51,698 nucleotides of DNA from a virus. Location of the stretch: positions 1 through 51,698 of the IMG/VR virus record IMGVR_UViG_3300006844_000015; one strand, 5' to 3'. The notes beneath the pieces are model-generated. The model searched no databases. It was not told the origin of the DNA and saw only the letters and a list, made by a program, of their open reading frames with translations. Both the position numbers and the translations under genes were made by a program. This document shows positions 2,916-48,331 of the stretch, piece after piece (within the stretch, counting starts at the first letter, position 1; each line of letters begins with the position of its first letter).

Positions 2916-3080
2916 GGAGCGGCTCCGGGGGACTCGGGACGGAGACAGCAACCGTAGCCCTACCCCTGGCTGCCGTGAACATCCCCCGAACGGTCGACCC
3001 CCTGGGCCGCTCGGCACCTCCTCCGAATGGGGGATGTTGCGGCACGTGGCGGAACCCCTAGAATCGCGCACTCATGCTAG

Positions 3081-3121
3081 GTTACCGCCCGGTAACATAC
3101 TCACGGTATGTTACCGGGCGG
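3081..3121. promoter_or_regulatory. GTTACCG operator-like cluster and 16-bp hairpin
   Basis: GTTACCG-CC-CGGTAAC at 3081-3096 is a perfect 7+2+7 palindrome, and a third GTTACCG follows at 3110. The longer arms CCGCCCGGTAACATAC (3085-3100) and 3106-3121 form a perfect 16-bp stem with a 5-base loop. Repeated palindromic half-sites between divergent operons suggest binding of a dimeric regulator. Confidence 0.55.
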
Positions 3122-3148
3122 TGTCCCGCCTCGCGTCGTACGCGTATA

Positions 3149-3184
3149 CGGTTCCTTATCTGCACGCGCGCAGATAAGGAACCG
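3149..3184. repeat. 15-bp hairpin in origin candidate
   Basis: The arms at 3149-3163 and 3170-3184 (CGGTTCCTTATCTGC and its reverse complement) pair perfectly around a 6-base loop. No T-tract follows on either strand, so this is more likely a protein-binding or origin structure than a terminator. Confidence 0.6.
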
Positions 3185-3227
3185 CGCGTAACGCTACGTA
3201 ACGCGTACGAGACCGCTCACCGTGAAT

Positions 3228-3267
3228 CACTACCCCCTCCCCCCCTTAGGGGGGGGAGGGGGTAGTG
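3228..3267. repeat. 18-bp C-tract/G-tract hairpin
   Basis: CACTA, a C5 run, T and a C7 run (3228-3245) pair with the reverse complement at 3250-3267 around a 4-base loop. The stem is unusually stable, and the G-rich strand could also form other structures. It sits at the centre of the divergent region. No T-tract follows. Confidence 0.6.
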
Positions 3268-3287
3268 TCTAAAGCTTTACTTTAGAC
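3267..3287. promoter_or_regulatory. GTCTAAAG inverted repeat
   Basis: GTCTAAAG (3267-3274) and CTTTAGAC (3280-3287) are 8-base inverted repeats separated by 5 bases. The GTCTA/TAGAC half-sites resemble the palindromes at 50022-50040 and 51291-51309, so this may be another site for the XRE regulator (inference). Confidence 0.35.
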
Positions 3288-3348
3288 TTCTCTTAAGAAG
3301 TAGACAAACCCCCACAAACCGGACAAAGCTGCCTGAAGCCGTCCAGAG

Positions 3349-3554
3349 CCTGGCAAGCTACGACGAAGCTGCACCAGCCAGGGCATTAGCCGCTGGCCAG
3401 CCTTAATCGGGGCGTCTTGCCAGGAACCAGGGCCATCCCTGGCAAGGCTCGCAAAACGGACACGGCCACCTTGACGGCTCCTGGCCAGCCGGCTACCGTG
3501 GCGCCATGGCCACCACGAGCGCTCCCGCTGACCAGCGGTCGAAGCCTGGCCAGG
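3349..3554. repeat. Iteron-like CCTGGCAAG / TGGCCAG repeats
   Basis: CCTGGCAAG occurs at 3349-3357 and 3438-3446 and its complement at 3416-3424. CTGGCCAG variants occur near 3393, 3480 and 3545. The 3416-3446 pair forms a 9-bp stem. Short repeats of this density beside a primase operon resemble replication iterons. Confidence 0.4.
3471..3499 (+). promoter_or_regulatory. Promoter of resolvase gene (leaderless geometry)
   Basis: TTGACG (3471-3476), a 17-base spacer and TACCGT (3494-3499) fit a sigma-70-type promoter. The expected start of transcription, about seven bases after the -10 box, coincides with the ATG at 3506. The same geometry occurs at 17031-16995, which suggests leaderless mRNAs. 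Confidence 0.45.
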
Positions 3555-4140: not shown

Positions 4141-4515
4141 ATGACCATCGGGCAGGATCGGACCGAGTACCGCAGACTGGCTCTCTTGCTGGCTCACGCC
4201 GTGGGGCGCCTCGCTTTCGAGCTGGAGTCCCGCCGCGCACTGGCAGAGGTGCGTGCGTCCTGGCCCTGCCTCGGACTCCTGGCTGACCAGGACGCGTCGA
4301 ACCTCGTTGGGCCGTATCCGGCCGCGCGGTGGCGCCTGCACCCCGACCTGTACACCGGGCCGATTGCGCGGCCCTACAGCCCGCTGACGCCGCGGCAGTC
4401 CGACGCCGCCCGCCGCCCGGCGATCCGCGCCGCGATGGGGGTAGCGACGGTCGACCAGCGCCCGCCCGTCGCCCTGGCTACCGCGGCGTTGTGGTCCGAG
4501 CGAGCGGGCCTGTGA
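4141..4515 (+). CDS. Hypothetical protein heading the small-gene chain
   Basis: 124 residues, Ala- and Arg-rich and mainly helical. The ATG directly follows GGGTCAAGGGCAG, the recurrent leader element. A VRASWPCLGLL segment near residue 40 resembles the Trp-Pro core of the proteins downstream, but the rest differs and family membership is uncertain. The stop codon overlaps the next GTG start. No function is recognised. Confidence 0.65.
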   Translation: MTIGQDRTEYRRLALLLAHAVGRLAFELESRRALAEVRASWPCLGLLADQDASNLVGPYPAARWRLHPDLYTGPIARPYSPLTPRQSDAARRPAIRAAMGVATVDQRPPVALATAALWSERAGL

Positions 4516-4835
4516 ACGTCCGCCCGCCGTCCATCCACGGTGCCGTGTGGAGCCGTGTCGTCTGGCCGCTGCTGGAGTACAGGGTGGCGTACCTTCGGTC
4601 GAGCCAGCACCTCGTTTGTCCCGTCAGCCTCCTGGACTCCTCCGCCGACCTCGACGTTTTCTGGCCGCCCCGGAAGCGTCCCCCTGATTCGCTTTCCAAC
4701 AATGCATGGGGCATGGTGCTGTCGGCCGATAGTCGAATTGGGAGTTACATCCCAGGAGGCACCCCCTGGATAATGGGCACTAGCGTCTGCGGTCGCCCCT
4801 GGGGCGCTACTGACTCCTGGTTGGGTTTGTCGTGA
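4512..4835 (+). CDS. WP protein 1 (unknown function)
   Basis: 107 residues; first clear member of a genome-wide family of about 30 small proteins defined here by a central aromatic-Trp-Pro motif. The motif is DVFWPPRK at W51, with a second WP at residue 18. The GTG start overlaps the previous TGA (GTGA), as does its own stop with the next gene. It is rich in Trp, Pro, Gly and Arg, with no signal peptide or membrane segment. No database family is recognised; a soluble beta-rich fold is a guess. Confidence 0.65.
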   Translation: MNVRPPSIHGAVWSRVVWPLLEYRVAYLRSSQHLVCPVSLLDSSADLDVFWPPRKRPPDSLSNNAWGMVLSADSRIGSYIPGGTPWIMGTSVCGRPWGATDSWLGLS

Positions 4836-5107
4836 GCCCTCTCCGCACTTACGCCCCCCTGGGCTTTGCGCTCATGCGTGTACCGGCCCTGGGCGGTTCG
4901 CCCCTCAATGGTCCGCCCGCTCCCGCTTGGACCTTGCAAGGTCGGGAGGCGCCATGCTTCATCCCCTGGCCGCTGTCGCCCGACAATGGGCCGTATGTCG
5001 TGCAGGGGCCGGTAATCCGCATCGCCAGGGAGATGTTTCCCGGCCCTTGGGATCGGACCCCGATTGCCCTAATGCGCACGGGTGGCGCTTGGGGGAATGT
5101 CTCGTGA
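4832..5107 (+). CDS. WP protein 2
   Basis: 91 residues with motif APCFIPWPL (W46). It shares the block GPPAP.W...GRE.PCF..WP with WP protein 3 immediately downstream, and a C-terminal GGAWGNVS similar to the ends of WP 3 and 4, so these three are tandem duplicates. The GTG start is in a GTGA overlap. The frame is supported by that shared block rather than by any known domain. Confidence 0.65.
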   Translation: MSPLRTYAPLGFALMRVPALGGSPLNGPPAPAWTLQGREAPCFIPWPLSPDNGPYVVQGPVIRIAREMFPGPWDRTPIALMRTGGAWGNVS

Positions 5108-5376
5108 AGCCTATCGATGTATGGCACCCTTTCTTTGACGCGGACGTGGTGCCCCTGCCACAGTTCCTCTCCGGCCCGCCGGCACCGCTTTGGAGTCGAG
5201 GCGGACGGGTCATGCCATGCTTCACTTCCTGGCCTGTACAGCTCGGTCGCTACCCGTTCGGTAATTGTGGTGCGCGGATGCCAGCGGTTCGCGCCTCGCG
5301 GCGTGTGCTCTACCGTCAGCCCGTGTTCATGCCGGTGTGTCTCGTGGCTGCGAGCGGCGAATGGGGGAGGCTGTAG
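5104..5376 (+). CDS. WP protein 3
   Basis: 90 residues with motif MPCFTSWPV (W43). The GPPAPLW and GR.MPCF stretch aligns without gaps to WP 2. After the motif, an Arg/Val-rich segment (AVRASRRVLYRQP) corresponds to one in WP 4. The GTG start overlaps the upstream TGA; the TAG stop shares its G with the next GTG. Confidence 0.65.
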   Translation: MKPIDVWHPFFDADVVPLPQFLSGPPAPLWSRGGRVMPCFTSWPVQLGRYPFGNCGARMPAVRASRRVLYRQPVFMPVCLVAASGEWGRL

Positions 5377-5660
5377 TGAAGATCGTTGTTCCGGTCTATC
5401 GACCCCTCGGCCTTCTCCATATTCACCGCGTGCCCTCGGTGTATGGGATACTCTCCGGTCCGCCCGCTCACTCCCGGAGTCGGTTCGGGCGGTTCGCACC
5501 GGACCCTGCTGCCTGGCCCTGCCGGTCTGACTGGCTATTGCGTCAAGGTGCTGTGAAGGTGCCGGCTATCGGCGGTGCTCGGCGGGTGTTGCCCAATCCG
5601 CTTCTTCGGCCGCCCGAAGCTTTGGCGATTTGGGGCGTGACCTGGGGGTATCTCTCGTGA
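5376..5660 (+). CDS. WP protein 4
   Basis: 94 residues with motif PDPAAWPCR (W47). GPPAHSRSRFGRF before the motif and the GGARRVL segment after it align with WP 3. The end, WGVTWGYLS, resembles WP 2. The GTG start shares one base with the upstream TAG. The upstream in-frame extension is not used because it lies inside WP 3. Confidence 0.65.
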   Translation: MKIVVPVYRPLGLLHIHRVPSVYGILSGPPAHSRSRFGRFAPDPAAWPCRSDWLLRQGAVKVPAIGGARRVLPNPLLRPPEALAIWGVTWGYLS

Positions 5661-6004
5661 GGATTGCACCGGCTTTCGCCGCCTGGCCTGTGACTCCTCC
5701 CCCGCCGTCCCCCTACTTCACCATTGACGGGATTGCGCCCGTCCCTGTCGTGCCTGCGTTCAAGGTGGCGCGGGAGACCGTGTCTCGTGTAGGACTTTCC
5801 GCCCCGGGGATTCTGCGAGCGGCATGGCACAATTCGCGGTACGTTGGGTTTGCGACGCCTCCCGGGTTATGGCGGTCGGTTTTCCAGGTCCCGCGGGTGC
5901 CAATGCCCGTCGAGAATACCTTTTGGATTAACGAATGGGGCGGTCCTCGTAGACTAACCGGCTTTGTCCGCGGCATTACGTGGGTTGACAACCCGTCGCG
6001 GTAG
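5657..6004 (+). CDS. WP protein 5, with a tail-fibre-like C-terminal motif
   Basis: 115 residues. Unusually the AFAAWPV motif is at the N-terminus (W10). Near the C-terminus NTFWINEWGGPR closely matches KTFWLNEWGAPR in the minor tail protein at 36774-37862, a motif common in actinophage tail proteins. It may be a fusion of a WP segment with a tail-derived segment. Its last codons lie over the -35 box of the next promoter (5985-5990). Confidence 0.65.
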   Translation: MRIAPAFAAWPVTPPPPSPYFTIDGIAPVPVVPAFKVARETVSRVGLSAPGILRAAWHNSRYVGFATPPGLWRSVFQVPRVPMPVENTFWINEWGGPRRLTGFVRGITWVDNPSR

Positions 6005-6014
6005 GTGCTATCCT
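5985..6014 (+). promoter_or_regulatory. Conserved phage promoter, copy 1
   Basis: TTGACA (5985-5990), an 18-base spacer starting ACCCGTCGCGG, and TATCCT (6009-6014). The spacer start matches the copies at 12271, 14071 and 24159, so it may also be a regulator site. A GGGCAG element (6025-6030) and ATG 6044 follow. Confidence 0.65.
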
Positions 6015-6043
6015 CGGGCGTCAAGGGCAGAGAGGATTGATCA

Positions 6044-6331
6044 ATGACGTGGGGTCCGGACGATTCGTGGCTGCCCATTTCGGCGCTGGGCGCGGCCCTT
6101 CTGATTTTCAATTCCTGCTATAGCGTGAATGCAGCAGCTTTCGCCTCGGGGCGATTCCGGCGTCATGCTATGCCGACCCTCACCACCTGGCCGAACGGGG
6201 AAGGCAGCTACCCCGTTCGGTATCCCATCCTGGCGATGCATGGCTCGAATGCCCTTTGGCGTACCTGTTACCCGTTCTGGCGTCAGGACGCTACGGGGCT
6301 TCGTGCCGCGTCGCTGCGGGCGGGGCTGTGA
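6044..6331 (+). CDS. WP protein 6
   Basis: 95 residues with motif MPTLTTWPN (W49). It is the first gene after the promoter at 5985-6014, with GGGCAGAGAGGA before the ATG. The C-terminal DATGLR occurs at a similar distance from the motif in WP 7, which marks them as neighbours by duplication. A short hydrophobic stretch (ALGAALLIF) is too short for a confident membrane segment. Confidence 0.65.
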   Translation: MTWGPDDSWLPISALGAALLIFNSCYSVNAAAFASGRFRRHAMPTLTTWPNGEGSYPVRYPILAMHGSNALWRTCYPFWRQDATGLRAASLRAGL

Positions 6332-6651
6332 TGAGCTGGAATCCGCGGCCACGTCGCACCGTTAGGGTCATGGCGCTAGCGACGGACTTTCGCATTTCTC
6401 TCTATTTCTCTCCCCGGCCTTCGGCCGAGCTGCATATGGGCGGTACTCGCTGGGAGGCCCAGCCCGACTTCACCGCCTGGCCAGTCCGGGTGTTGCGCTG
6501 GCCTATCCGGGCGATGGTGCCCGCGGCCGACCCTTGCCGATCCTGCCTTTCCCTCTTCTTCGGGGATGCGACGGGACTTCGACAGTGGAGCGTCCTGGAA
6601 CGGGTGGCGCCCAGTCTGTCGACTGTTGCATCTGGCTGGACGGTGCTGTGA
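6331..6651 (+). CDS. WP protein 7
   Basis: 106 residues with motif QPDFTAWPV (W50). The ATG shares a base with the upstream TGA. The N-terminus MSWNPRPRRTVRVMA is almost the same as that of WP 8 (MSWAPRGHRAVRVMA), and PRPSAELHMG aligns with PRAELRMG there. This is the clearest N-terminal evidence of duplication in the array. Confidence 0.7.
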   Translation: MSWNPRPRRTVRVMALATDFRISLYFSPRPSAELHMGGTRWEAQPDFTAWPVRVLRWPIRAMVPAADPCRSCLSLFFGDATGLRQWSVLERVAPSLSTVASGWTVL

Positions 6652-7154
6652 TGAGCTGGGCCCCGCGAGGTCACCGTGCCGTCCGGGTGATGGCGCCGGT
6701 CTTTGATCTTTGTGCTCCCTTCCCGACTGCGCCGCGGGCAGAGCTGCGCATGGGCGTTCGGAACTTCGCGCCCGACTTCGCCAGCGCCTGGCCTAGCGTC
6801 GGCGCCGATACGCGCCCGACGTGGGCGACGCGGCGCGAAGGTGCTGCCCTACTGGTCGTTGAGGCGTCTTGGCCGTACGAGCTGTCTGCCGTGGTCGCCA
6901 ACCACGCGTGGGAGGCGCTGCGCCGGGGACTGCATTCAGCGCAGCGCGCCGACCGTCCGGCGAAGCTGATGCAGGTTTACACCTACATGCAGTTTTCCTT
7001 TGATTGGAGTGCCCCCCGCGAGACGCCCCTCCCGCCCGGCATGGATAGGATGGTGGGGCGCAAGGGGGAGTGGCGTTCATTCAGTACGATCTACGCCACG
7101 CATGGTATCTTCCTGAATTACGGTAACGTGCGGCGGGAGGTGTATCCGCTGTGA
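6651..7154 (+). CDS. WP protein 8, extended
   Basis: 167 residues, the longest family member. The first 55 residues match WP 7 and contain APDFASAWPS (W47). The following 110 residues contain another SWP (VVEASWPYE) and a helical ANHAWEALRRGLHSAQ segment, and may be an unrelated domain or a second, degenerate unit. The TGATG junction with WP 7 fixes the start. Confidence 0.65.
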   Translation: MSWAPRGHRAVRVMAPVFDLCAPFPTAPRAELRMGVRNFAPDFASAWPSVGADTRPTWATRREGAALLVVEASWPYELSAVVANHAWEALRRGLHSAQRADRPAKLMQVYTYMQFSFDWSAPRETPLPPGMDRMVGRKGEWRSFSTIYATHGIFLNYGNVRREVYPL

Positions 7155-7447
7155 TGATTCCACCGAGTGGGCCGCGGGGACTCCCGGCATTGCTGTACCC
7201 GGGCGCATTTGTCGAATGGCGAGGCGTGGGCACTACGGGGCTGTACGGTAGCGTCAGTCATTTCCGGCACTACACTAGAGCCTATCGCGCAACCTTTGAC
7301 GTCTGGCCGCGGCAGTCGAGGTACCTCCGCCCTGCCTCTCGATTCGATGAAGCACTGCTGTGGACGGCGGGGGCACTGCCGCGGCGATCTATGGGGCTGT
7401 CTTTGATTAGCCCGAGGGGGCAGTGGTCCAATGTCGTCAACCCGTAG
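7154..7447 (+). CDS. WP protein 9
   Basis: 97 residues with motif RATFDVWPR (W51). ATG 7154 overlaps the upstream TGA in the same way as WP 7 and WP 8; GTG 7151 is an in-frame alternative one codon earlier. It is rich in Arg, Gly and aromatic residues. It overlaps the next gene by 17 bases. Confidence 0.6.
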   Translation: MIPPSGPRGLPALLYPGAFVEWRGVGTTGLYGSVSHFRHYTRAYRATFDVWPRQSRYLRPASRFDEALLWTAGALPRRSMGLSLISPRGQWSNVVNP

Positions 7448-7751
7448 TGCAGCCCACATGCTTCCCCTCCTGCGTAGGGAGTTTCGCGCGAAGGGCTATA
7501 ACCGTCTCTGGCACTTCCTGCAATTCGAGGTGAATTCCCACTACATGCAATCTGTGTTGGCGCTCTCGGGGCGGCGCGTTTCGCCCGACTTCCAACCGTT
7601 TGCCAAGGGCTCGCCTTGTAGTATGCCTGCCGTTCAGGAGCTGCCCGAACAGACTCAGGTGGCGCTCTTGACGCTCTTGCCGTACACGGCCTGGTTATTT
7701 CTACGCCCTACTGGTAGACTTATTCAGCTTGGCCGTTGGGACCACCTCTAA
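7431..7751 (+). CDS. WP protein 10, degenerate motif
   Basis: 106 residues. The expected core is replaced by SPDFQPFAKG near residue 57, keeping the PDF of WP 7 and 8 but losing Trp-Pro. A PYTAWLFL segment follows. It lies in frame within the same polycistronic chain, so it is kept as a probable diverged member. No function is recognised. Confidence 0.55.
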   Translation: MSSTRSAAHMLPLLRREFRAKGYNRLWHFLQFEVNSHYMQSVLALSGRRVSPDFQPFAKGSPCSMPAVQELPEQTQVALLTLLPYTAWLFLRPTGRLIQLGRWDHL

Positions 7752-7764
7752 GATTGGGGCAGAA

Positions 7765-7950
7765 ATGGACTGGGACACCGCCGAGGCGATTCACATGATC
7801 AAGAGCATGAAGCGGGAGAAGGCGGCCAGGGCGGGCCAGTCGCAGCGGAAGGGTTGCGGCGGAGGCTGTGCGGTCGTCATCCTCGCCACACTCGGCAGCG
7901 TGGGCGCGTCGGCCTACCTCGTGGCGTACGCGCTCGCCCAGGTGTTCTAG
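7765..7950 (+). CDS. Small membrane protein inside the WP array
   Basis: 61 residues. A basic, helical first half is followed by a hydrophobic C-terminal segment (about residues 35-61, CAVVILATLGSVGASAYLVA) that should span the membrane. GGGGCAG lies two bases before the ATG. It lacks the WP motif and looks like an unrelated gene in the array. Its TAG shares a base with the next GTG. Confidence 0.65.
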   Translation: MDWDTAEAIHMIKSMKREKAARAGQSQRKGCGGGCAVVILATLGSVGASAYLVAYALAQVF

Positions 7951-8285
7951 TGGCTACCTGGCCGCGGCAGCGCCACCATAGGCACGTGGTTATCCGTGCC
8001 TCAAAGAAGTGGCCGGGGCTCCCCCTGCTTGTCTTCCCGTTGCGTGGGCATGACCGTCCCAGACCCTTCCGGGGCGCCTTCTCCCGTTGGCCAAGCGGGC
8101 GTGATTGGCGGAATGTCAGTAGTGCAATCTGGCACGGCCGGGAGGGCTATGGGCTGACTGCGATACGGCAGCGGGTGGCGCGAACTTCGCCCGACGTCAT
8201 GCGCATGCCGGGCGTAGCCAACCCCTTCGCGTGGGAGCCGTGCCACACTCTCGACCCCGGCATCTGGGAGTTGTTCCATGAGTGA
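7950..8285 (+). CDS. WP protein 11
   Basis: 111 residues with motif GAFSRWPSG (W47) and two more WP pairs at W4 and W21. The GTG start shares a base with the upstream TAG. It is strongly basic before the motif (RQRHHRHVVIRASKK). The last codons overlap the start of the mini-gene at 8278. Confidence 0.6.
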   Translation: MATWPRQRHHRHVVIRASKKWPGLPLLVFPLRGHDRPRPFRGAFSRWPSGRDWRNVSSAIWHGREGYGLTAIRQRVARTSPDVMRMPGVANPFAWEPCHTLDPGIWELFHE

Positions 8286-8397
8286 CACCCCTCCCTGGCC
8301 GCGGCTGCGTCAACGTTGGCGCGTTGACCTTCCGGAGTACTTGTGGCCGGGCTTGTCTTTCCGTGCATTGTTCCTGGGGAGGTGGCAGTGGCGATGA
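8278..8397 (+). CDS. WP mini-protein 12 (39 residues)
   Basis: Short frame MSDTPPWPRL... with Trp-Pro at residues 7 and 23, ending GRWQWR. Its ATG overlaps the previous gene and its TGA overlaps the next ATG as ATGA, so it fits the chain exactly. It is either a truncated family member or a genuine peptide. The minus-array mini-gene at 47405-47524 has the same length. Confidence 0.5.
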   Translation: MSDTPPWPRLRQRWRVDLPEYLWPGLSFRALFLGRWQWR

Positions 8398-8693
8398 TTG
8401 AGGCATTCGATCCGCAGCAGCATTTCTGCCTTTCCCTCTACTGGAATCTGTCGAAGCCTGGTTACAGGCTCCATGCGCTACACCCTGATGACGCGGTCAT
8501 CCCCGAGAGCTTCGGCCCCTGGCCGAAGGCTCATTTGCTTCGGCCGATCGTCACACTCGCTGGGCGTCCGGATCTTGTTGGGTTTTATTGGGCCGTGTCC
8601 TGGCACTTCTGCACGCTCAATGTCCGAGCGGCCGGCGGCATCCCCAGCGCTCAATTTTTCTGGTCGGCGTCCGCCCCCTGGGAATGGAAATGA
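8394..8693 (+). CDS. WP protein 13
   Basis: 99 residues with motif ESFGPWPKA (W43). The ATG forms an ATGA overlap with the mini-gene; GTG 8388 is an in-frame alternative. It is rich in aromatic residues after the motif (GFYWAVSWHF, SAQFFWSASAPWEWK), which suggests beta strands. Confidence 0.6.
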   Translation: MIEAFDPQQHFCLSLYWNLSKPGYRLHALHPDDAVIPESFGPWPKAHLLRPIVTLAGRPDLVGFYWAVSWHFCTLNVRAAGGIPSAQFFWSASAPWEWK

Positions 8694-9145
8694 CCGCGAC
8701 CGTCGAGCGCGTCTACCCCCCGTCTACCTTCACCATGGGCGAGCGGAGATGGCCCGCTCCGCCGGATGCCCCACGTCTGGCCTGGCCCGCGCCGGTCATT
8801 GCTGCGCGCGACATCGCAGCGGACGACCCCCTCACGCCTCGCCCCGCCCGCGCCCTGTACGCCACGCTCGCCGCGGCCGGCTGGTCGGTGCGCCTGACGC
8901 ATGCCCGCGGTACTGCCCCGGCGGGTCACGGCGCTCCTGGGGCGTTGCACGACAGCGTCGCCGTGCGGGCAACCAGCGTCCGCACGGGACTGCGTCTGGC
9001 TTCGTGCTGGGGGCGCGTCGTTGACGGGGAGAAGTGGGCGGCCACCCTGCGTGCCGTCCAGGTGCGCCCCGGCGCGCTACCCCGACCATTGTCGGCGGTG
9101 GCGCTCAAGCGACTTATCGAGTGGGAGGCACGGTGTCCGGAGTGA
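8690..9145 (+). CDS. WP protein 14, with helical C-terminal domain
   Basis: 151 residues. WP pairs occur at W21 and W32 (APRLAWPAP). The C-terminal 100 residues (from ARALYATLAAAGWSVRLTH to SAVALKRLIEW) look like a separate compact domain and may carry the specific function. The ATG overlaps the upstream TGA as ATGA; the stop overlaps the next GTG. Confidence 0.6.
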   Translation: MTATVERVYPPSTFTMGERRWPAPPDAPRLAWPAPVIAARDIAADDPLTPRPARALYATLAAAGWSVRLTHARGTAPAGHGAPGALHDSVAVRATSVRTGLRLASCWGRVVDGEKWAATLRAVQVRPGALPRPLSAVALKRLIEWEARCPE

Positions 9146-9423
9146 ATTGTGAAGTGGTAGACAGGGTCCGCTTTGTGGCGCGGCTGTCTCGGAGACGCGT
9201 TGGCGTACCGCCGCATGGCCGCGCTCCCCTGGTCTACGGCACCCCCGAGTGGGGCGTGACATTCGGTCGCTGGGAGCCCGAACGCGTGCGAGGGTACTCG
9301 GGGCTACCTATCGCAATTACCCGAGGACTTTACTGCGTGCCCGACCCCGGTCCTGCCGATAGTTTCACCGCTGCGGCATTGATTACAGAGGATAAGGGAA
9401 ACCTCTGGGGAGGTGGGAAGTGA
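9142..9423 (+). CDS. WP protein 15, altered motif
   Basis: 93 residues. The core reads VTFGRWEPER (W44), with Glu inserted between Trp and Pro, otherwise at the usual position. Arg-rich N-terminus; C-terminus ends NLWGGGK. The GTG start is in a GTGA overlap. Confidence 0.55.
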   Translation: MNCEVVDRVRFVARLSRRRVGVPPHGRAPLVYGTPEWGVTFGRWEPERVRGYSGLPIAITRGLYCVPDPGPADSFTAAALITEDKGNLWGGGK

Positions 9424-9746
9424 TGCACGACCTTCGGGACAATGCCGTCAAAGTTATTCGGTGGGTTAGTATGCGCACTGCGTTCAGCACAATACCTTCG
9501 GTCCCCATGCTTCACCCCGAGCACGTTGGGCCGTTCACCTCCTGGCCGCCCGACCCTCGCGCCGACGCACGCCCGGGACTCGCCTTCTGCGAACCGGTAT
9601 TCATTGCGTACCATGACACGGACGCATGGTGTGTATCTGGCAGTGTCGGACATGCATTCCCACTTGCGCGCCCCGTGGTGAGTATGACCGAGTCGATCTG
9701 TGGTCACCGGCGGTGGGCCAATCGTCACCTCTGGAGTCACCAGTGA
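9423..9746 (+). CDS. WP protein 16
   Basis: 107 residues with motif GPFTSWPPD (W41). ATG 9423 overlaps the upstream TGA; GTG 9420 is an in-frame alternative. MLHPEHVGPF before the motif resembles the region before the core in WP 17 (EFLHPGID). The stop overlaps the next GTG. Confidence 0.6.
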   Translation: MHDLRDNAVKVIRWVSMRTAFSTIPSVPMLHPEHVGPFTSWPPDPRADARPGLAFCEPVFIAYHDTDAWCVSGSVGHAFPLARPVVSMTESICGHRRWANRHLWSHQ

Positions 9747-10039
9747 GGCCGGTTGAATTTCTGCACCCGGGTATCGACACGATGTTCTTGCGCGGGCGTG
9801 ACGGTCGGGCGCTGATCTTGTCTCATTGGCACAATGACACCCCCGAGGGTTTTAACTTTGCGTGGGGCAAGAGCCCGTGGAAATACGGTCGAGCGTATCG
9901 CGAGTTGGATGTCCGCATGGCGTATGCCGCAAATGCGCTTAGGCGTATGTGCGAGGTCACTCCGCAGGTATCATCCCCTGTTGCGTTGATTGATCCGGAC
10001 ACGGGGGACACGGGTTTTTACTGGGAGGCGTGCGAGTGA
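9743..10039 (+). CDS. WP protein 17, altered motif
   Basis: 98 residues. The core position reads FNFAWGKSPW (W41), so Trp is kept and Pro is displaced. The C-terminus (ALIDPDTGDTGFYWEACE) is acidic. The GTG start is in a GTGA overlap and the stop overlaps the next GTG. Membership rests on position, length and the Phe-x-x-Trp spacing. Confidence 0.5.
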   Translation: MRPVEFLHPGIDTMFLRGRDGRALILSHWHNDTPEGFNFAWGKSPWKYGRAYRELDVRMAYAANALRRMCEVTPQVSSPVALIDPDTGDTGFYWEACE

Positions 10040-10335
10040 CGATCGTTCATGACGTCGCGCGGAACGCGCTATCGCCAATTTCCGTTGTTGACGTACCTTC
10101 GTTCTTTTGGCACCACGATTGGCAGGACCGGGCCCCGGCCTTCTTCGTCTGGCCGCGCTACTACGGCTGGCACCGGTTGCGTCGCCGCGCTGCCGAGGTC
10201 ACGCCGTGGCTGGCACCGGAGGCGGCGCCGTGGATGCACGCCTGGCCCTTGAGCATTCGGCTTGTGGGGCGGCTGGAGCCCTGGCCGCGGGTTGTGCCGC
10301 GCCGGACGCTTCCCGAGCGGGTGAACGCGCCGTAG
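10036..10335 (+). CDS. WP protein 18
   Basis: 99 residues with motif APAFFVWPR (W39), and further WP pairs later (MHAWPLS, LEPWPRV). It is the last gene of the plus-strand chain, 28 bases before the tail fibre. The GTG start is in a GTGA overlap. Confidence 0.6.
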   Translation: MTIVHDVARNALSPISVVDVPSFFWHHDWQDRAPAFFVWPRYYGWHRLRRRAAEVTPWLAPEAAPWMHAWPLSIRLVGRLEPWPRVVPRRTLPERVNAP

Positions 10336-10363: not shown

Positions 10364-12274
10364 ATGCCGCTGGTCATGGTCACCGTGCACGGTGGGTTCG
10401 AGGCGCCCGGCGGAGCCGCGGCGGACGGCACGATCGTGTTCACCCTGTCGCGTCTGCTACGCGACCCGCTCGGCAACGTGCTCTACTCGCCCACCGTCTG
10501 GGCGATCCCGCTGGACGCGAACGGCGAATTCAGCGTCAGCCTGCCGGCCACTGACTCCCCTGACGTCACGCCGCAGGATTGGGCCTACCGGGTCACGCTT
10601 CACCTGGAGCCTGACCATGACGAGACGTTTCAGCTCCAGGTGCCCGCGGCCACCGTGGGTGTACTGGAGCTGGCTGACGTCGCGCCGGCCGTCATGCCGA
10701 TAACGCTGGTCAGCTACGCCCTGGCCAGCCACACACACCCCGGCAGTACGCCGAGCGCCACGGTGGTCAGCGAGACCACCTACGGCCAGGCGCCGGCCGC
10801 GGGCGTGGCGGCGAGCTTCTCCCGCGGTGACCACACCCACGGCACGCCAGCCGCGGGCGCTGGTGCGCACACGCACCCGGAGTCCGAGGTGGTTGACCTG
10901 GAGGCAGACCTCGCCGCCAAGGCCGACCTCGTACACACCCACGATGAGGCCGACGTCACCGGACTGGTGACCGACCTTGCCAGCAAGGCGCCGGCCGTCC
11001 ACGGCCACGTGATCAGTGAGACGGCCGGGCTGTCAGCTGCGCTGGCCAGCAAGAGCGACACCGGTCACGCCCACGTTCAGGCGGACGTGGTTGACCTTGT
11101 GGCGAACCTGGGGACCCTCACCGCCGACGTTGCCGCCCGCTCCCTGCTCGGCCATGTGCACTCCGCCGTTGACGTCACGTCGGGAGTCCTGGCCTTCGCG
11201 CGGTTGCCAGTGGGCACCACTGCTGGCACGGTGGCCGAAGGTGCCCACGCCCACACTCAGGCGGACGTGAGCGGCTTGGTGGCCGACCTGGCGGGTAAGG
11301 CCGCCGCGGTGCACGCTCACGCACAGGCCGACGTCACGGGACTCACGGCAGCCCTGGCAGGCAAGTCCGACACCGGGCACGTACACGCTCAGGCTGACGT
11401 GACGGGGCTGAGTGCTGCGCTCGCGGGCAAGAGTGATGTTGGCCATGTGCACTCCGGCGGCGACATCACCAGCGGCACCGTGGCTACGGCACGCCTGGAC
11501 GTTGGCGCCGCGGCGGGACAGGTCGCGGCCGGCGACCACACTCACGACGGTGCCGCCATCACGACCGGCACGGTGGCTACCGCCCGTCTCAGCGTCGGCA
11601 CGACGGCCGGCACCGTGGCCGCCGGAGACCACGGCCACGACGCGGCGGCGATCACCAGCGGAACGCTGGTGGTGGCGCGTCTTCCGGTAGGCACGACCGC
11701 CGGCACCGTGGCCGCAGGCGATGATGCTCGGATCGTCGGCGCGCTTCAGGCGGGCAACAACCTGTCCGAGCTGGCCAGCGCCGCCACCGCTCGGACGAAC
11801 CTGGGACTCGGTAGTCAGGCGACGCGCGACCAGGAATTCATGTACCTGGCGGCCGACGCGACGGCGATCAACAACAATGCCGTATTGGCGAACCTTGCTC
11901 CGACGCGCCTGAAACTTCCCGTTGAGACAAGTAAGACGTATCTCCTTGAGGCCACGGTTTTCGTGGACACGGGCAGTACTCCGGACTTCAGGGTTGGCTT
12001 GACCTTTCCTGCGGGGTGTACGGGCAAGTGGTGGGGCGCCCCGGCCCGCAACACCGCCGACACTGCCTCGAACTTCACGGCGGTGTCCATCGCCACGGCG
12101 CTCACGCACGGCGGCGTTGCGTCGGGTACAGAGATCGGCGCGAAGTTCGAGGGGATAGTTCACGTTTCAACTACCGCCGGTGAGCTTGAGCTACAGGCTT
12201 CCCAGAACACCGCGACGGCGACGAACACCGTGGTCAAGGCGCAGACCTGGATGCGTCTCGTAGAGGTGGCTTGA
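10364..12274 (+). CDS. Tail fibre / receptor-binding protein with HxH repeats
   Basis: 636 residues. Residues 1-125 form a beta-rich attachment domain that resembles the N-terminus of the collagen-like tail protein at 38491-39351 (both have a G-x-FS-x-x-LPAT element). Residues about 126-455 are repeats of roughly 22-35 residues such as GHVHAQADVTGLSAALAGKS, with many His-x-His pairs. In other fibres (T4 gp37) such pairs bind metal and form trimeric needles. The last 150 residues are the probable tip. It lies apart from the tail operon, after the WP array. Its stop codon overlaps the next -35 box. Confidence 0.8.
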   Translation: MPLVMVTVHGGFEAPGGAAADGTIVFTLSRLLRDPLGNVLYSPTVWAIPLDANGEFSVSLPATDSPDVTPQDWAYRVTLHLEPDHDETFQLQVPAATVGVLELADVAPAVMPITLVSYALASHTHPGSTPSATVVSETTYGQAPAAGVAASFSRGDHTHGTPAAGAGAHTHPESEVVDLEADLAAKADLVHTHDEADVTGLVTDLASKAPAVHGHVISETAGLSAALASKSDTGHAHVQADVVDLVANLGTLTADVAARSLLGHVHSAVDVTSGVLAFARLPVGTTAGTVAEGAHAHTQADVSGLVADLAGKAAAVHAHAQADVTGLTAALAGKSDTGHVHAQADVTGLSAALAGKSDVGHVHSGGDITSGTVATARLDVGAAAGQVAAGDHTHDGAAITTGTVATARLSVGTTAGTVAAGDHGHDAAAITSGTLVVARLPVGTTAGTVAAGDDARIVGALQAGNNLSELASAATARTNLGLGSQATRDQEFMYLAADATAINNNAVLANLAPTRLKLPVETSKTYLLEATVFVDTGSTPDFRVGLTFPAGCTGKWWGAPARNTADTASNFTAVSIATALTHGGVASGTEIGAKFEGIVHVSTTAGELELQASQNTATATNTVVKAQTWMRLVEVA

Positions 12275-12299
12275 CAACCCATCGGGGTGAGGGTAGTGT
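12271..12299 (+). promoter_or_regulatory. Conserved phage promoter, copy 2
   Basis: TTGACA (12271-12276), a 17-base spacer starting ACCCATCGGGGT, and TAGTGT (12294-12299). GAAGGGCAGAGAAC follows before ATG 12346. The same architecture is seen at 14071 and on the minus strand at 24159. Confidence 0.7.
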
Positions 12300-12345
12300 T
12301 TGCCCTGCCGGCGAGCGGCGCCGGGCACGGAGAAGGGCAGAGAAC

Positions 12346-12861
12346 ATGACACTCGCAATGGAGCTTCGGGCCAGGCAGTGCACCCGCTGTGGCGGCAGCG
12401 GCCAGTACCGCGCCTACGGGAAATGCTTCGCGTGCAACGGCACCGGACACATGGCCAGCCTTCCGACCGCCCCGGAGGAGCGTAAGCGGCTGGCTGACCG
12501 CACGTCGCTGAACGCCGTACTGGCCAGCATCCCGGCGAGCCGGTACGCCCTGCCGAACGTCGGCGCCGGCAAGGCCGCTGACGGCAGCTGGCTCCGCTGG
12601 GACTTCTTCGAGGTGGTCGAGCGTCGCGGCGGACGTCGGTACCTCAACCGCCTTGTGGGCGCGCCTGGTGACTGGAGCCGTGAATGGCTGTCGCTGACGC
12701 TCCAGACCTACGCGGCTGGTCACATCGCAGAAGACCCGAGGTCTGCGGCCATCGCCTATGCGCAGCAGCACGGGCGCTGCGCGGTCTGCGACGCGCCGCT
12801 GAGCAACCCGGAAAGTATCGCTCGCAGTATGGGGCCGATCTGCGCGAAGCGCTTCGCCTGA
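12346..12861 (+). CDS. Zinc-binding protein with DnaJ-like and DUF6011-like Cys motifs
   Basis: 171 residues. The N-terminus has two CxxC knuckles (CTRCGGSG and CFACNGTG), as in DnaJ zinc domains. The C-terminal 35 residues (CAVCDAPLSNPESIARSMGP, then C) match the pattern I know from DUF6011-type actinophage proteins. It probably binds zinc and nucleic acid. It is transcribed from its own promoter with the GGGCAG leader and followed by a strong hairpin. Confidence 0.75.
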   Translation: MTLAMELRARQCTRCGGSGQYRAYGKCFACNGTGHMASLPTAPEERKRLADRTSLNAVLASIPASRYALPNVGAGKAADGSWLRWDFFEVVERRGGRRYLNRLVGAPGDWSREWLSLTLQTYAAGHIAEDPRSAAIAYAQQHGRCAVCDAPLSNPESIARSMGPICAKRFA

Positions 12862-15896: not shown

Positions 15897-16147
15897 TCGC
15901 GGTCTGCGGTGTGTCCGACATGCCAGTGTGGATACCCTGTCTTGCCTAGTCGATAGTCGTCATTCCACCAGCATGGATAGGGCAACTTGATTTCGGCCGC
16001 CCTAGGGTGAAGTGATTCGGCACGTTCACGCCATTTGGCGTTAAGGTCCATAGCATGAGCGAGGGCCGCCGCCCGAGTTAGATGCTTAATCTTTCTCTTA
16101 TGACCGTATTTGTATGCACGGTATGGGTGATCTTTCTTTAGCGCCAC
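15866..16147 (-). CDS. Hypothetical basic protein
   Basis: About 93 residues from GTG 16147. The first 35 residues are very basic (KKDHPYRAYKYGHKRKIKHL); then a helical segment (AAALAHAMDLNAKW) and an aromatic end (YPCWWNDDYRLG). The ATG at 16180 is less likely because its extra codons read the end of the upstream gene in another frame. It is last in a minus-strand operon and converges on terL. Unknown function. Confidence 0.55.
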   Translation of the reverse strand: MALKKDHPYRAYKYGHKRKIKHLTRAAALAHAMDLNAKWRERAESLHPRAAEIKLPYPCWWNDDYRLGKTGYPHWHVGHTADRDYRRRTAPAD

Positions 16148-16362
16148 GGGTCGTACCGGTCCCATCGGTTTGGGCGACATAGATAAATGCTTGCCTTATC
16201 CATGGCCTCTTGCCATGTCAGACCAAATTCCCCGAATTCCCTATTCCCAGATATGACGCCCCATCCTCCCTGGTACCTTGAGACCTTGCACCTGTCGGGC
16301 CTGATTAGGGCTGGCAATTTGCGAATACACGTACGGCAGTCGCAGGGATAGCGGCTCGTCAT
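16138..16362 (-). CDS. Duplicated small protein, copy B
   Basis: 74 residues. The C-terminal 45 residues repeat those of the upstream gene: GWGVISGNREFGEFGLTWQE and CRPNRWDRYDPWR. The N-terminus keeps Cys residues (CDCRTC). The ATG overlaps the upstream stop as ATGA. The two form a recent tandem duplication with different N-termini. Unknown function. Confidence 0.7.
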   Translation of the reverse strand: MTSRYPCDCRTCIRKLPALIRPDRCKVSRYQGGWGVISGNREFGEFGLTWQEAMDKASIYLCRPNRWDRYDPWR

Positions 16363-16655
16363 CGCCACGGGTCGTACCGGTCGTAGCCGTTGGGGCGGCA
16401 GAGGTACGCGCTGGCTGCATCCATGGCCTGTTGCCATGTCAGGCCGAAGGCGCTGAATTCCCGGTCGCCCGAGATGACACCCCAGCCCATGCCGTACTTT
16501 GAGATGTCGCACTTGACGGGGTATTCACAGTCGTGGAGGCGTGCCTCACCCATGCAACCATCGGATGATGACGCGTCGAAGTCCCGACAGCAGTCCTCGC
16601 AGTACGCTTCGTATTCGTTACGCTCTTCGTTCCACCATGTCTCGGTGAGTTTCAT
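16359..16655 (-). CDS. Duplicated small protein, copy A
   Basis: 98 residues. The N-terminal half is Cys-rich (YCEDCCRDFD, then GCMGEARLHDC), a probable zinc site. The C-terminal half (GWGVISGDREFSAFGLTWQQ, then CRPNGYDRYDPWR) is shared with the gene just downstream. It overlaps the upstream gene by four bases. No function is recognised. Confidence 0.7.
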   Translation of the reverse strand: MKLTETWWNEERNEYEAYCEDCCRDFDASSSDGCMGEARLHDCEYPVKCDISKYGMGWGVISGDREFSAFGLTWQQAMDAASAYLCRPNGYDRYDPWR

Positions 16656-17514: not shown

Positions 17515-17790
17515 GTGAGCGAGACGGAGTCCACCCCGCGGCCCGCGGCAGAGCCACGCCCCGAGGGAATCACCGCCACCGAGGCAGCCGCGCTCATGGG
17601 CGGAGTCTCGCCGGTGACGGCGCGGGAGAATCTCCGACGCTGGGGCGTCAGGCCGATTGCCGTAGCGAAGGTCACGCGCGGTTGGGAAAATCTATTCGAT
17701 TTGGAGGCCGTAAAGTGGGCAGTGGCAAATCGGCCCGGCCGTGGCCGGTGGCGAGCGAGGAAGACGGCGACGAATTCCCCGTCAGAGTAA
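17515..17790 (+). CDS. Helix-turn-helix DNA-binding protein
   Basis: 91 residues. TATEAAALMGGVSPVTAREN followed by LRRWGV looks like a MerR/excisionase-type winged helix-turn-helix; the C-terminus is basic. AGGAGG precedes the GTG start. It opens the plus-strand accessory block upstream of the portal gene. An excisionase role is unlikely without an integrase, so a transcription or packaging factor is more plausible. Confidence 0.65.
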   Translation: MSETESTPRPAAEPRPEGITATEAAALMGGVSPVTARENLRRWGVRPIAVAKVTRGWENLFDLEAVKWAVANRPGRGRWRARKTATNSPSE

Positions 17791-18062
17791 AGATACATGC
17801 GAGTGCGATGGAGGCACCCAGCGCCCGCAGGATGGGGTTTGCCAGCCCCTGGCACGGCGCCGACCCTCACTTTTCCTGGGGGCCGGACACGCTTTCGCCC
17901 TGGCCTCCGGCGCCTGACCACACGGGAAGGCTTAAGCGTGCGGGGCTGGCGAGGGATGTCTACGGCGGCGACATTCGCGCTGCCTCCGCGCGATTCCTTC
18001 TCCATGATAGTCAGCCTTTCGCACTTCCCACGACCGGCCCCCTCTATGCGGGGCTGTCGTGA
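17715..18062 (+). CDS. WP protein 19
   Basis: 115 residues from GTG 17715, preceded by TGGAGG at good spacing although it overlaps the upstream gene by 76 bases; ATG 17809 is a fallback. The motif is DTLSPWPPA (W63), with another WP at residue 10. The stop overlaps the next start as GTGA. It is one of two family members isolated from the main arrays, upstream of the portal gene. Confidence 0.6.
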   Translation: MGSGKSARPWPVASEEDGDEFPVRVKIHASAMEAPSARRMGFASPWHGADPHFSWGPDTLSPWPPAPDHTGRLKRAGLARDVYGGDIRAASARFLLHDSQPFALPTTGPLYAGLS

Positions 18063-18376
18063 GCCTAGACCTCTGGCTCAAGGGCCGACGCATGATGGTC
18101 AACGGCATTAGCTTTTCCGAGCCAGTGCGGCGAATGTACGTTCATCACTCCGTCGTGATGCCCGAGCTCCTCTGGGAGGAGCGGAACCTAATCCCCGTCC
18201 TGCCCTACGTCCACACCTGGCCGGCGTATCAGGTCATGACGCCTGACGGTCGGGTGCGTTATCTTTCGTTGCGGAAAGTCCCGGGCATTCACGCCACTGC
18301 GCTTTATGTTCGGTTCGAGCAGGATTCCCCGTTCCGCCTTCCTCGCATCCGTCGACTCTCCTGGGAGTATGCATGA
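18059..18376 (+). CDS. WP protein 20
   Basis: 105 residues with motif LPYVHTWPA (W54). Basic N-terminus, with a C-terminus containing LYVRFEQDSPFRLP. The GTG start is in a GTGA overlap with WP 19, and its stop overlaps the ATG of the membrane protein. Third family locus in the genome. Confidence 0.65.
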   Translation: MSLDLWLKGRRMMVNGISFSEPVRRMYVHHSVVMPELLWEERNLIPVLPYVHTWPAYQVMTPDGRVRYLSLRKVPGIHATALYVRFEQDSPFRLPRIRRLSWEYA

Positions 18377-24129: not shown

Positions 24130-24159
24130 ACCCTACGCTTCACCTCGATGGGTTGTCAA
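24130..24159 (-). promoter_or_regulatory. Conserved phage promoter, copy 4 (minus)
   Basis: On the minus strand, TTGACA (24159-24154), an 18-base spacer starting ACCCATCGAGGT, and TAGGGT (24135-24130). It drives the 23132-24093 operon. With copies 2 and 3 it defines the consensus. Confidence 0.75.
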
Positions 24160-40594: not shown

Positions 40595-41015
40595 TTCCGA
40601 ATCACCGGAGTGTCCCCGCCGTCGCGGGTCCGGTGGCACCCCCTTGCGGAGGTGGGGCCCTTGCCCTGCCCCTGCGATCAACGGGGGCGGGGCTGTTCTC
40701 GTGGCTCACCCTTGCGAAGTTGCCCGAGATTTAGGAGTGACTGCCGCGCAGGTCGGTTCATAACAGCCAGCCTCGAACCCCGCATGCCGCCGGCCGAAAC
40801 GCCTTACCAGCTGGGTGGTGTTTTCTTCGCGCCCGTTAGGAGGCCCTGCGATCAACAGGGCGCGGGCACTTCGGGGGCTGGCTTGACGCAACAGTCACTA
40901 GTCTATGGAATTAAGAAGTCCCGAGGCGATTCGCTTCACCCTTGAGATTTCCGCGCCCAGCCAGCCCGGCGCGGTAAAGCAAATACTTACCCGGCCGTCC
41001 GGCTCCGGGACTTCG
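40595..41015. other. Structured non-coding region with repeated CGATCAA hairpins
   Basis: About 420 bases without a convincing gene between the late-operon terminator and the tRNA. Two stem-loops share the loop CGATCAA: GCCCCTG/CGGGGGC (40668-40688) and GCCCTG/CAGGGC (40843-40861). CACCCTTG-like segments recur near 40638, 40708 and 40938. It could encode a structured RNA or hold packaging or recombination sites. A 126-codon plus-strand frame here lacks a good start site and codon pattern. Confidence 0.4.
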
Positions 41016-41089
<74 letters not shown>

Positions 41090-41883: not shown

Positions 41884-42804
41884 TCAGGTACGCCGTAGCG
41901 TCTGGCTGTATTCCTCGGGGGATTCTCCCGCAGTCCAGGCGACGGCGTCAAGTGCCTTGACGAAGTTGTCCGGCACGGCCAGGCCATAGCGGCGACGGGT
42001 GCCCGTACGTTCGAGCGAACCATTGGTGACGACGAGGATTTTCACGTCCATTCCCCAGGTGTCACGGGGGACGTCGTACAGCTTGACCGTCTGCCCGGGA
42101 TTTCCCGGGTCGTCGCATTCGTCCACGAGTGAGAGGTTCGCCTGCGTGGCGAATTCCTCCCAGCCGACCCGCTCGATGGCGGCGCGGCGGACCTCGACGT
42201 TGGGCTCCTCACGGATGCGCTCTACCGAGGGGTCCATGATGACCCACTGGGGGACGTTCGCGCCGTGCCAGAAGTAGAGCCCCCACGGGTCGGCGCCGTC
42301 CCACTCAATCGCAGGGCCGTCCGCGCGGTGGAGCTGGTGCGAGCCCGGCCCGTCCGGGCCGATGCGCTCGATGTGAGTTGCGGTCGGCCGTTCGGTGACC
42401 ACGACAAAGTCCGGGTGCGGATACCACCAGCCGGCCGAGCACGCCGCTTCGTACGCGGCCAAGATCTCCCATTCCTTCTCGCGGTCCGGAAGCTGCATAA
42501 CGTCGCGGGCGAACGCCAACGAGGCCAGCCAGTTGTGCCAGCTCTGGCCGCCGAGCTGCTCGTAGTAGATGGCCCGCGCTTCGGCGCCGGTGATGGCCGC
42601 GGTGACCTCGGCCAGCCGCTTCGGATGCGGCACCTTCACGACCACGCCGGGCCACGGCGTGTCGCACAGCTCGTAGACGCGCTTCACGCCCGCCTCCCAT
42701 GCCGCCCAGTCCGGGGGCGTGGGGTCAATGGATTTGTACATCCATTGCTTGGCGAACGGGATGAGCTGTGCGCGCTCCTCATCCGTGAGATTCCTGACTG
42801 CCAT
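41884..42804 (-). CDS. DUF6745-like protein
   Basis: 306 residues. HQLHRADGPAIEWDGADPWG, LYFWHGANVPQWVIMDPSVE and NVEVRRAAIERVGWEEFATQ match what I know of DUF6745, an actinobacterial family of unknown function. GGGCAG lies two bases before the ATG. It is flanked by the cupin-like protein and a helix-turn-helix protein. Host homologues are chromosomal, so it may have been acquired from a host. Confidence 0.75.
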   Translation of the reverse strand: MAVRNLTDEERAQLIPFAKQWMYKSIDPTPPDWAAWEAGVKRVYELCDTPWPGVVVKVPHPKRLAEVTAAITGAEARAIYYEQLGGQSWHNWLASLAFARDVMQLPDREKEWEILAAYEAACSAGWWYPHPDFVVVTERPTATHIERIGPDGPGSHQLHRADGPAIEWDGADPWGLYFWHGANVPQWVIMDPSVERIREEPNVEVRRAAIERVGWEEFATQANLSLVDECDDPGNPGQTVKLYDVPRDTWGMDVKILVVTNGSLERTGTRRRYGLAVPDNFVKALDAVAWTAGESPEEYSQTLRRT

Positions 42805-45901: not shown

Positions 45902-46179
45902 CTCCCCCCGAATTCGGGGCAGGCGTTCCGAGACTCGGCGGGGAACCTAAGTCCAGCTTGCAATGGGGAATGCGACACCCACCAGGCATTAACCAGTGGG
46001 ACATCGATATTGCGTATCAGCATGGGCTGGCGACCGTACGGCCAGGTGTAGAACGGAGACGGCACCGGGAGGGGACGCCTCAGTCCATCCTTAAGGAATG
46101 CGAGAGAAAGCCGCCCGCAGGTGATCGGAGGAAGGGAGACAATGGCGATCCGCAACGAGTTAATGGACATGGTTCTCAC
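45898..46179 (-). CDS. WP protein 22
   Basis: 93 residues from GTG 46179, or 90 from ATG 46170. The motif is PSPFYTWPY (W46); the DVPL..A.W block follows. The N-terminus is hydrophobic and basic (LRIAIVSLPP) but not a clear signal peptide. It overlaps the upstream gene by 20 bases. Confidence 0.65.
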   Translation of the reverse strand: MRTMSINSLRIAIVSLPPITCGRLSLAFLKDGLRRPLPVPSPFYTWPYGRQPMLIRNIDVPLVNAWWVSHSPLQAGLRFPAESRNACPEFGGR

Positions 46180-46810
46180 CGCCCGTGGCGTGCGCCTCCT
46201 GGTGAATTCGGAGGAGGTCTGCCAGGTCGTCCAGCTTGGCAGTCACGGGTACGCCCTGGTGGAAAGTCGCCAGGTGCACCAGGGCGGCTACCGGGTCGAC
46301 CAGCTCCGGCGGCTCCCACGGGTGCGTCTCGCTCTCGCGGTAGGCGATGACCTCCCCGCCCAGGCGCACCCTGACGACCGCCACGGCCAGCTCGGCGGTG
46401 GACACACCAGCGGCGTCTGCCACGGCGCCCAGCGGCAGCAGGGACGGCGCGGGGGCGGCGTAGAGGCTGGCGGCTGCCGTGTTCATTGCGGTCTCGTTCG
46501 CCGCACGTTGCTGCGCGGTCTGACGTCCAGGCGGCCCGACGTCGCCCTCCAGTTCGATCCAGCCGCGGCTAGCTGGTGGACGTGGGCCGCCCACTAGCGC
46601 CTGTGCGGCGAGGCGCTCGGCGTCGCGCCAGCGCCACACAACCTCGACGTCCGCGCCGGGCGGGGGCGTACCAGTGACGGGCGCGACGCCGTCCCGCTTC
46701 AGCGTCACCACACTGTCCGCCGGCCCGGACCGGGCGCTCACGCGCCAGCGGTTGCCGTCCGCCCCCACGATGACGTCGTTTACCTCGACCTCTGCCCACT
46801 GAAGAATCAT
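46160..46810 (-). CDS. Hypothetical protein with KOW-like start
   Basis: 216 residues. MILQWAEVEVNDVIVGADGN followed by RWRVSAR looks like a small beta-barrel (KOW/SH3-like). The middle is Ala/Pro-rich; the C-terminus (AGVSTAELAVAVVRVRLGGE; LVHLATFHQGVPVTAKLDDL) is helical. It interrupts the minus-strand WP array. No function is recognised. Confidence 0.65.
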   Translation of the reverse strand: MILQWAEVEVNDVIVGADGNRWRVSARSGPADSVVTLKRDGVAPVTGTPPPGADVEVVWRWRDAERLAAQALVGGPRPPASRGWIELEGDVGPPGRQTAQQRAANETAMNTAAASLYAAPAPSLLPLGAVADAAGVSTAELAVAVVRVRLGGEVIAYRESETHPWEPPELVDPVAALVHLATFHQGVPVTAKLDDLADLLRIHQEAHATGGENHVH

Positions 46811-48074: not shown

Positions 48075-48331
48075 GCCAGTGCTCCCCGCTCTGCGTCTAG
48101 CATCTCAAATTCCCGGGGATACTTATCCCAATCAAAGGAAGTTGCCAACTGCCATACCCGTGATTGGAACCCATCAAAGTAGGAGACATCCGGCCAGGTG
48201 GTGAAGTCGTCCGCCAACCGGCCGGAGATGTTCTCGTCAATGGCGGCCGGAATGTACCATTCTGACTCCGGCCAGTTGGCGCGGGTAAAGTTCCACAGGT
48301 CCATCTCAAACGAGAGCGGCAGGAAGTTCAC
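48071..48331 (-). CDS. WP protein 28
   Basis: 86 residues with motif DDFTTWPDV (W46), followed by FDGFQSRVWQLATSFDWDKY. An extra WP occurs at residue 20 (ANWPES). Acidic, unlike the basic plus-strand members. The ATG overlaps the helicase stop, so helicase and WP genes are translated from one message. Confidence 0.7.
   Translation of the reverse strand: MNFLPLSFEMDLWNFTRANWPESEWYIPAAIDENISGRLADDFTTWPDVSYFDGFQSRVWQLATSFDWDKYPREFEMLDAERGALA

Follow-up and report, generated by a model that had tools for sequence, protein, structure and literature searches.

The sequence analyzed here, called the window below, is a stretch of 51,698 nucleotides (nt) covering positions 1 to 51,698 of the IMG/VR virus record IMGVR_UViG_3300006844_000015. 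It contains 30 small genes, most of whose products carry a tryptophan-proline (Trp-Pro, or WP) core. These genes, termed the WP family, constitute a private, expanded, and fast-diverging orphan gene family that is real and unusual. The explanation favored here, with a probability of about 0.5, is that the family has grown by tandem duplication within one actinobacteriophage lineage and that its products may be early accessory proteins directed at the host or its defences.

The accessory genes of phages are usually mosaics of unrelated orphans. In this genome, in contrast, some 30 diverged copies of a single orphan family occupy approximately 3000 codons, or 17.5% of the genome, which is therefore unusual. 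The arrays also offer a natural test set for the question of whether phages vary a single scaffold to act on many targets, and, because the members are small and lie in separable sub-arrays, this question is directly testable.

Organization of the arrays and the Trp-Pro core

A first-pass annotation of the window had described about 30 small WP genes in three loci, 17 or 18 of them in the first. The present count agrees: 18 members belong to array A, two to array B, and ten to array C, and each array forms a same-strand chain (4512-10335, plus; 17715-18376, plus; 50719-45578, minus). The 18 members of array A include a gene of 39 codons (8278-8397) that had not been listed. The arrays consist of the following genes.

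4512-4835, 4832-5107, 5104-5376, 5376-5660, and 5657-6004, plus strand: array A, five members with WP cores and 4- or 1-nt overlaps
6044-6331, 6331-6651 (or from GTG at 6328), and 6651-7154 (or from GTG at 6648), plus strand: array A, three members with mosaic similarity
7154-7447 and 7431-7751, plus strand: array A, two members in the overlap chain, the former with WP at residue 51, the latter lacking WP and assigned by place and length
7765-7950, plus strand: small gene within array A, not a member; the product looks hydrophobic or membrane-type (hydrophobic C-terminal stretch, no WP, typical codon usage)
7950-8285, plus strand: array A member with WP at residues 4, 21, and 47
8278-8397, plus strand: array A, short member of 39 codons overlapping both neighbors; its translation reads MSDTPPWPRLRQRW...LWPG...WQWR
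8394-8693, 8690-9145, 9142-9423, 9420-9746, 9743-10039, and 10036-10335, plus strand: array A, six members with successive 4-nt overlaps
17715-18062 and 18059-18376, plus strand: array B, two members with WP at residues 63 and 54, respectively
50719-50378 and 50381-49980, minus strand: array C part 1, two paralogs (BLASTP E = 1.7e-14, 38% identity over 99 amino acids)
48328-49983, minus strand: DEAD/ResIII-type helicase within array C (Pfam ResIII, 2e-26), with a 4-nt overlap with a member on each side
48331-48071, 48074-47811, 47814-47524, 47524-47405 (39 codons), 47408-47115, and 47118-46813, minus strand: array C part 2, an overlap chain
46179-45898 and 45901-45578, minus strand: array C part 3 (BLASTP E = 0.001 around and after the core)

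Array A lies in a chain of 20 consecutive plus-strand open reading frames (ORFs; 4141-10335). Nearly all of its links are 4-nt (GTGA/ATGA) overlaps, as first described, or 1-nt overlaps, and clear gaps occur only at 6005-6043 and 7752-7764. The ORF at the head of the chain (4141-4515) has Trp-Pro at residue 41 and normal codon usage; its membership is doubtful, and it is not counted. Array C is split by the helicase gene and by a gene at 46160-46810. Where the chain seemed interrupted, there is in each case a 39-codon ORF (8278-8397 and 47524-47405); at its start, the former is similar in DNA sequence to the beginning of gene 7950 (79% over 34 nt). In many members the Shine-Dalgarno sequence of the next gene is located within the last codons, an arrangement that makes translational coupling along the arrays likely.

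The length of 85-115 residues first given for the family holds for most members. Two proteins are longer (151 and 168 residues), and the two 39-codon genes are shorter. Trp-Pro is present in 26 of the 30 members, and in array A in 15 of 18, being absent from 7431, 9142, and 9743, the last two of which keep F..W. The placement at residues 41-63 reported earlier is likewise correct for the majority. The dipeptide is found at residues 37-60 in 22 members, or in 23 if gene 17715 is started at 17787, and elsewhere in 5657 (residue 10) and 8690 (residues 21 and 32). The start at 17787 was rejected: the codon there is GTA, and the start at 17715 has a GGAGG site.

Only 3.1 members would be expected to have WP at residues 37-60 in composition-preserving shuffles, and 23 was reached in none of 10,000. 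Similarly, the pattern [FLYI]x2-3WP occurs in 23 of the 30 members versus 4.9 expected, a value also unmatched in 10,000 shuffles. Over 28 genes, WP dipeptides number 38 in frame; the other two frames have 1 and 5, and the antisense strand has 3. Among 34 other small genes of the same phage, three carry the placed motif. A chance motif of tryptophan- and proline-rich frames, which the first-pass annotation had named as the outcome that would overturn the family, is excluded by these shuffles and by the absence of the motif from the other frames and the antisense strand.

The GC contents of the first, second, and third codon positions (GC1/GC2/GC3) are 0.66/0.56/0.74 in array A and 0.60/0.49/0.69 in array C, which is a coding pattern (GC3 > GC1 > GC2). 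The third-position bias is weaker in the array members than in the core phage genes, and for this reason a gene caller based on codon usage skips many of them. Arrays A and C have a tryptophan content of 4-5%, the core genes one of 1.7%. The array of WP genes is confirmed as one of real genes with a common core. A tryptophan close to the C-terminal end, seen in 16 of 28 genes versus 8.4 expected, was rejected as a family feature, since it mostly reflects the Shine-Dalgarno sequence (TGGGGG, TGGGAGG) of the following gene.

Paralogy within the arrays and the search for relatives

The expansion and divergence of one family, proposed on first reading, are borne out by links between neighbors, by mosaic blocks, and by the recovery of most members with profiles. 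BLASTP links 50378/49980 (E = 1.7e-14), 4832/5104/5376 (6e-10 to 2e-5), 48071/47811 (1.6e-7), 6328/6648 (7.7e-7, residues 1-52), 6044/6328 (5.7e-5, residues 30-91), and 45898/45578 (0.001). The top eight of all 435 pairs are neighboring genes (z = 7-24). Similarity beyond the core is significant for about 12 genes in neighboring groups and weak or absent for the remaining members. Gene 6331 (alternative start 6328) has its N-terminal half in common with 6651 and its C-terminal half with 6044, according to BLASTP and half-wise z-scores; therefore, the copies are mosaic. In leave-one-out tests, most left-out members rank straight behind the training set.

From these comparisons, a common origin appears well supported for members within neighboring groups and probable across groups. 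Considering that the closest relatives are all neighbors, that some are mosaic, and that 39-codon members lie in the gaps, the arrays point to tandem duplication followed by divergence and decay.

The first-pass annotation had also suggested a search among viral and actinobacterial proteins, and no relatives were found in the databases scanned. With Pfam, PHROGs, and NCBIfam profiles, 29 proteins gave just isolated chance-level matches (E = 0.04-0.08). No member matched a PADLOC model at E up to 0.1, none matched a defence, anti-defence, or toxin family, and PDB sequences gave no match above chance. Among 296 actinobacterial genomes, a profile search returned three matches at E up to 0.01, which is the chance expectation. 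In tblastn searches with six members against sequenced phages and one against plasmids, nothing fell below E = 0.1. No true relative came from IMG/VR, scanned with four members, or from GTDB contigs, scanned with one; these scans are sensitive to close relatives only, and strongly diverged homologs could escape them. Two candidate relatives were rejected: the IMG/VR match L084 turned out to be a tail-type gene read in antisense, and L100 resembles helix-turn-helix proteins.

In ten loci taken from related or comparable phages, 0-4 genes have a central WP and the small genes form no paralog pairs; the same crude gene caller finds 22 WP genes and five paralog pairs in the present phage. Phage relatives reached via the terminase, primase, and helicase are without such arrays, and the nuclease query gave no relatives. 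No account of a WP family of this kind was found in the literature searched.

Possible roles and competing explanations

Under the favored explanation, the family would have expanded inside a single actinobacteriophage lineage through tandem duplication. New copies would retain a short core, in many cases of the form P-x-[F/L]-x-x-W-P, and be joined to their neighbors by the stop-start overlaps, with the Shine-Dalgarno sequence in the final codons of the preceding gene. They may then diverge fast, swap halves, or be reduced to short remnants. The members would be early accessory proteins, each targeting its own host protein or defence system, the core being a shared structural nucleus and the flanks a variable recognizing part. 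A role in an arms race is a plausible best guess from the anatomy of the genome.

Several observations weigh against this explanation. The ratio of nonsynonymous (dN) to synonymous (dS) substitution between nearest paralogs, a check proposed by the first-pass annotation for detecting positive selection, is about 0.3-1.0 over whole alignments (dS 0.6-1.8). It never exceeds 1, synonymous sites are near saturation, and positive selection is not shown. The leave-one-out scores are weak (E of about 2e-6 to >1), one member is not recovered, and several are placed in the family only by position and a weak motif. AlphaFold2 models are uninformative, with a mean predicted local distance difference test score (pLDDT) of only 56 (predicted template modeling score, pTM, 0.20) for a 22-row alignment and 36 for a two-row alignment. 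Array B is located among late genes, and arrays occur in both gene sets of the genome, which fits a purely early role less well.

Among known systems, the host-takeover cluster of Bacillus phage SPO1, which comprises 26 genes (PMC6873191), is similar in that a few dozen small phage genes are clustered; in SPO1, some have been shown to act on host proteins. It differs in that the WP members are duplicates of one another, and their expression and host targets are conjectural. The SPO1 host-takeover proteins are not known to form a single paralogous group sharing a core.

The multigene families of African swine fever virus and the immune-modulator families of poxviruses consist of larger proteins with known host-defence roles in eukaryotic viruses. 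The WP family resembles them in tandem duplication and divergence, in its large share of the genome, and in loss and remnants; it differs in host and in the smaller size of its proteins, and no sequence relation is expected. It is possible, though rather doubtful, that the arrays are a phage counterpart of these families, in which one small fold is multiplied and halves are exchanged around a fixed core to give a changing panel of inhibitors of various host defences. The WXG100/ESX proteins share a length of about 100 residues, a tryptophan motif near the middle, and an actinobacterial setting. In contrast, the WP proteins are rich in proline and arginine, their motif is W-P instead of W-x-G, and no member matches the WXG100 Pfam profile at E up to 0.1.

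It is unlikely that the arrays are the product of runaway, near-neutral duplication, in which copies made by recombination drift in a non-essential stretch and at most one founder had a host-directed role. The dN/dS values near 1 for 5104/5376 and 48071/47811 would be expected from such drift, as would the 39-codon remnants and a codon usage less phage-like than that of the core genes. On the other hand, about 30 frames remain open, the core is retained while the rest diverges, and dN is below dS in most pairs (ratio 0.3-0.5), which indicates constraint at the protein level. Moreover, the length of phage genomes is under pressure, yet the arrays take up about 17.5% of this one.

An origin from several unrelated lineages of small proteins, with the core arising by convergence or chance in proteins rich in tryptophan, proline, and arginine, appears improbable. 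It is true that mutual similarity is significant in just a handful of neighbor groups and that, outside the core, members of different groups are identical only to the background level. However, the shuffles that keep composition never match the observed number or position of cores, and the placed motif is scarce in the other small genes of this phage and in the other phages (0-4 genes).

Still less probable is that the core is a nucleic-acid element, such as a recombination or regulator binding site, of which the common peptide is a by-product. In 23 of 24 cores, the codon preceding the tryptophan has C at its third position, versus 8.5 expected from codon usage (P = 5e-10), which initially suggested an element at the DNA level. 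In addition, the full pattern YTCNNCNYCTGGCC occurs nine times in the window, every copy inside WP-family genes, and one mosaic junction falls at the core. However, C also precedes 24 of the 34 other Trp-Pro codon pairs of this genome, leaving P = 0.015, and a DNA- or RNA-level motif is kept only as a weak observation. The core is always in one reading frame, no conserved RNA structure was found at the cores, and a search of the genome for tyrosine or serine recombinases found none. Finally, small virion or assembly proteins would agree with the positions of array A, immediately upstream of the tail-repeat protein gene, and array B, between the terminase and portal genes, but are highly improbable, because array C lies on the opposite strand around a helicase gene with no structural gene near, and related phages make similar virions without WP proteins.

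Genome context and other features

The window begins and ends with a perfect 120-bp direct repeat (1-120 = 51579-51698). As assembled, the record is therefore a complete genome, either circular or terminally redundant, with a length of 51,578 bp and a GC content of about 66%. The gene order is of the siphovirus type: terminase (14445), portal (19086), head morphogenesis (20926), capsid (24292), and tape measure (30792). The first 25 kb gave no DNA-level match to sequenced phages. The terminase is 45.6% identical to that of Saccharomonospora phage PIS 136, 49% to that of an IMG/VR contig, and 48% to that of a Streptomyces prophage region; judging from these relatives, the host is probably an actinobacterium.

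Two gene sets diverge from a region at 2916-3505. The leftward set comprises the primase and then, around the circle, array C with the helicase and a PD-(D/E)XK nuclease; the rightward set runs from RusA through array A into the late genes. Arrays A and C thus both adjoin replication genes. Two non-coding features stand out.

2916-3505: divergent intergenic region between the primase-to-array-C and RusA-to-array-A gene sets (gene map)
5985-6014, plus strand: promoter-like site on the palindrome GGGTTGACAACCC (TTGACA, 18 nt, TATCCT; consensus scan), in the array A gap upstream of gene 6044

Between the primase and RusA genes, three near-perfect inverted repeats with arms of 17-18 nt (3084-3267) form a candidate origin or regulatory region. 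The promoter-like element recurs at 12271, 14071, and 17045 on the plus strand and at 24159 on the minus strand. It may be described as a putative promoter/operator, (G)GGTTGACAACCC(A/G)TCG..GGT, with the -35 box TTGACA inside the palindrome, and several copies lie upstream of small genes in the late region. The ORF at 12271-12861, after the tail-repeat gene, has a CXXCXGXG stretch resembling that of DnaJ, as well as a DUF6011 domain; its true start is probably later, because the listed TTG start overlaps a copy of this element.

Outside the WP arrays, the small minus-strand genes at 16359-16655 and below contain a 165-nt tandem duplication (16135-16520, 73% identical), which is a further diverging duplicate. 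A DUF6745 gene (41884-42804; Pfam 6e-25) is tryptophan-rich (5.2%) and without the WP-family core. A single tRNA-Met gene is located on the minus strand at 41015-41089.

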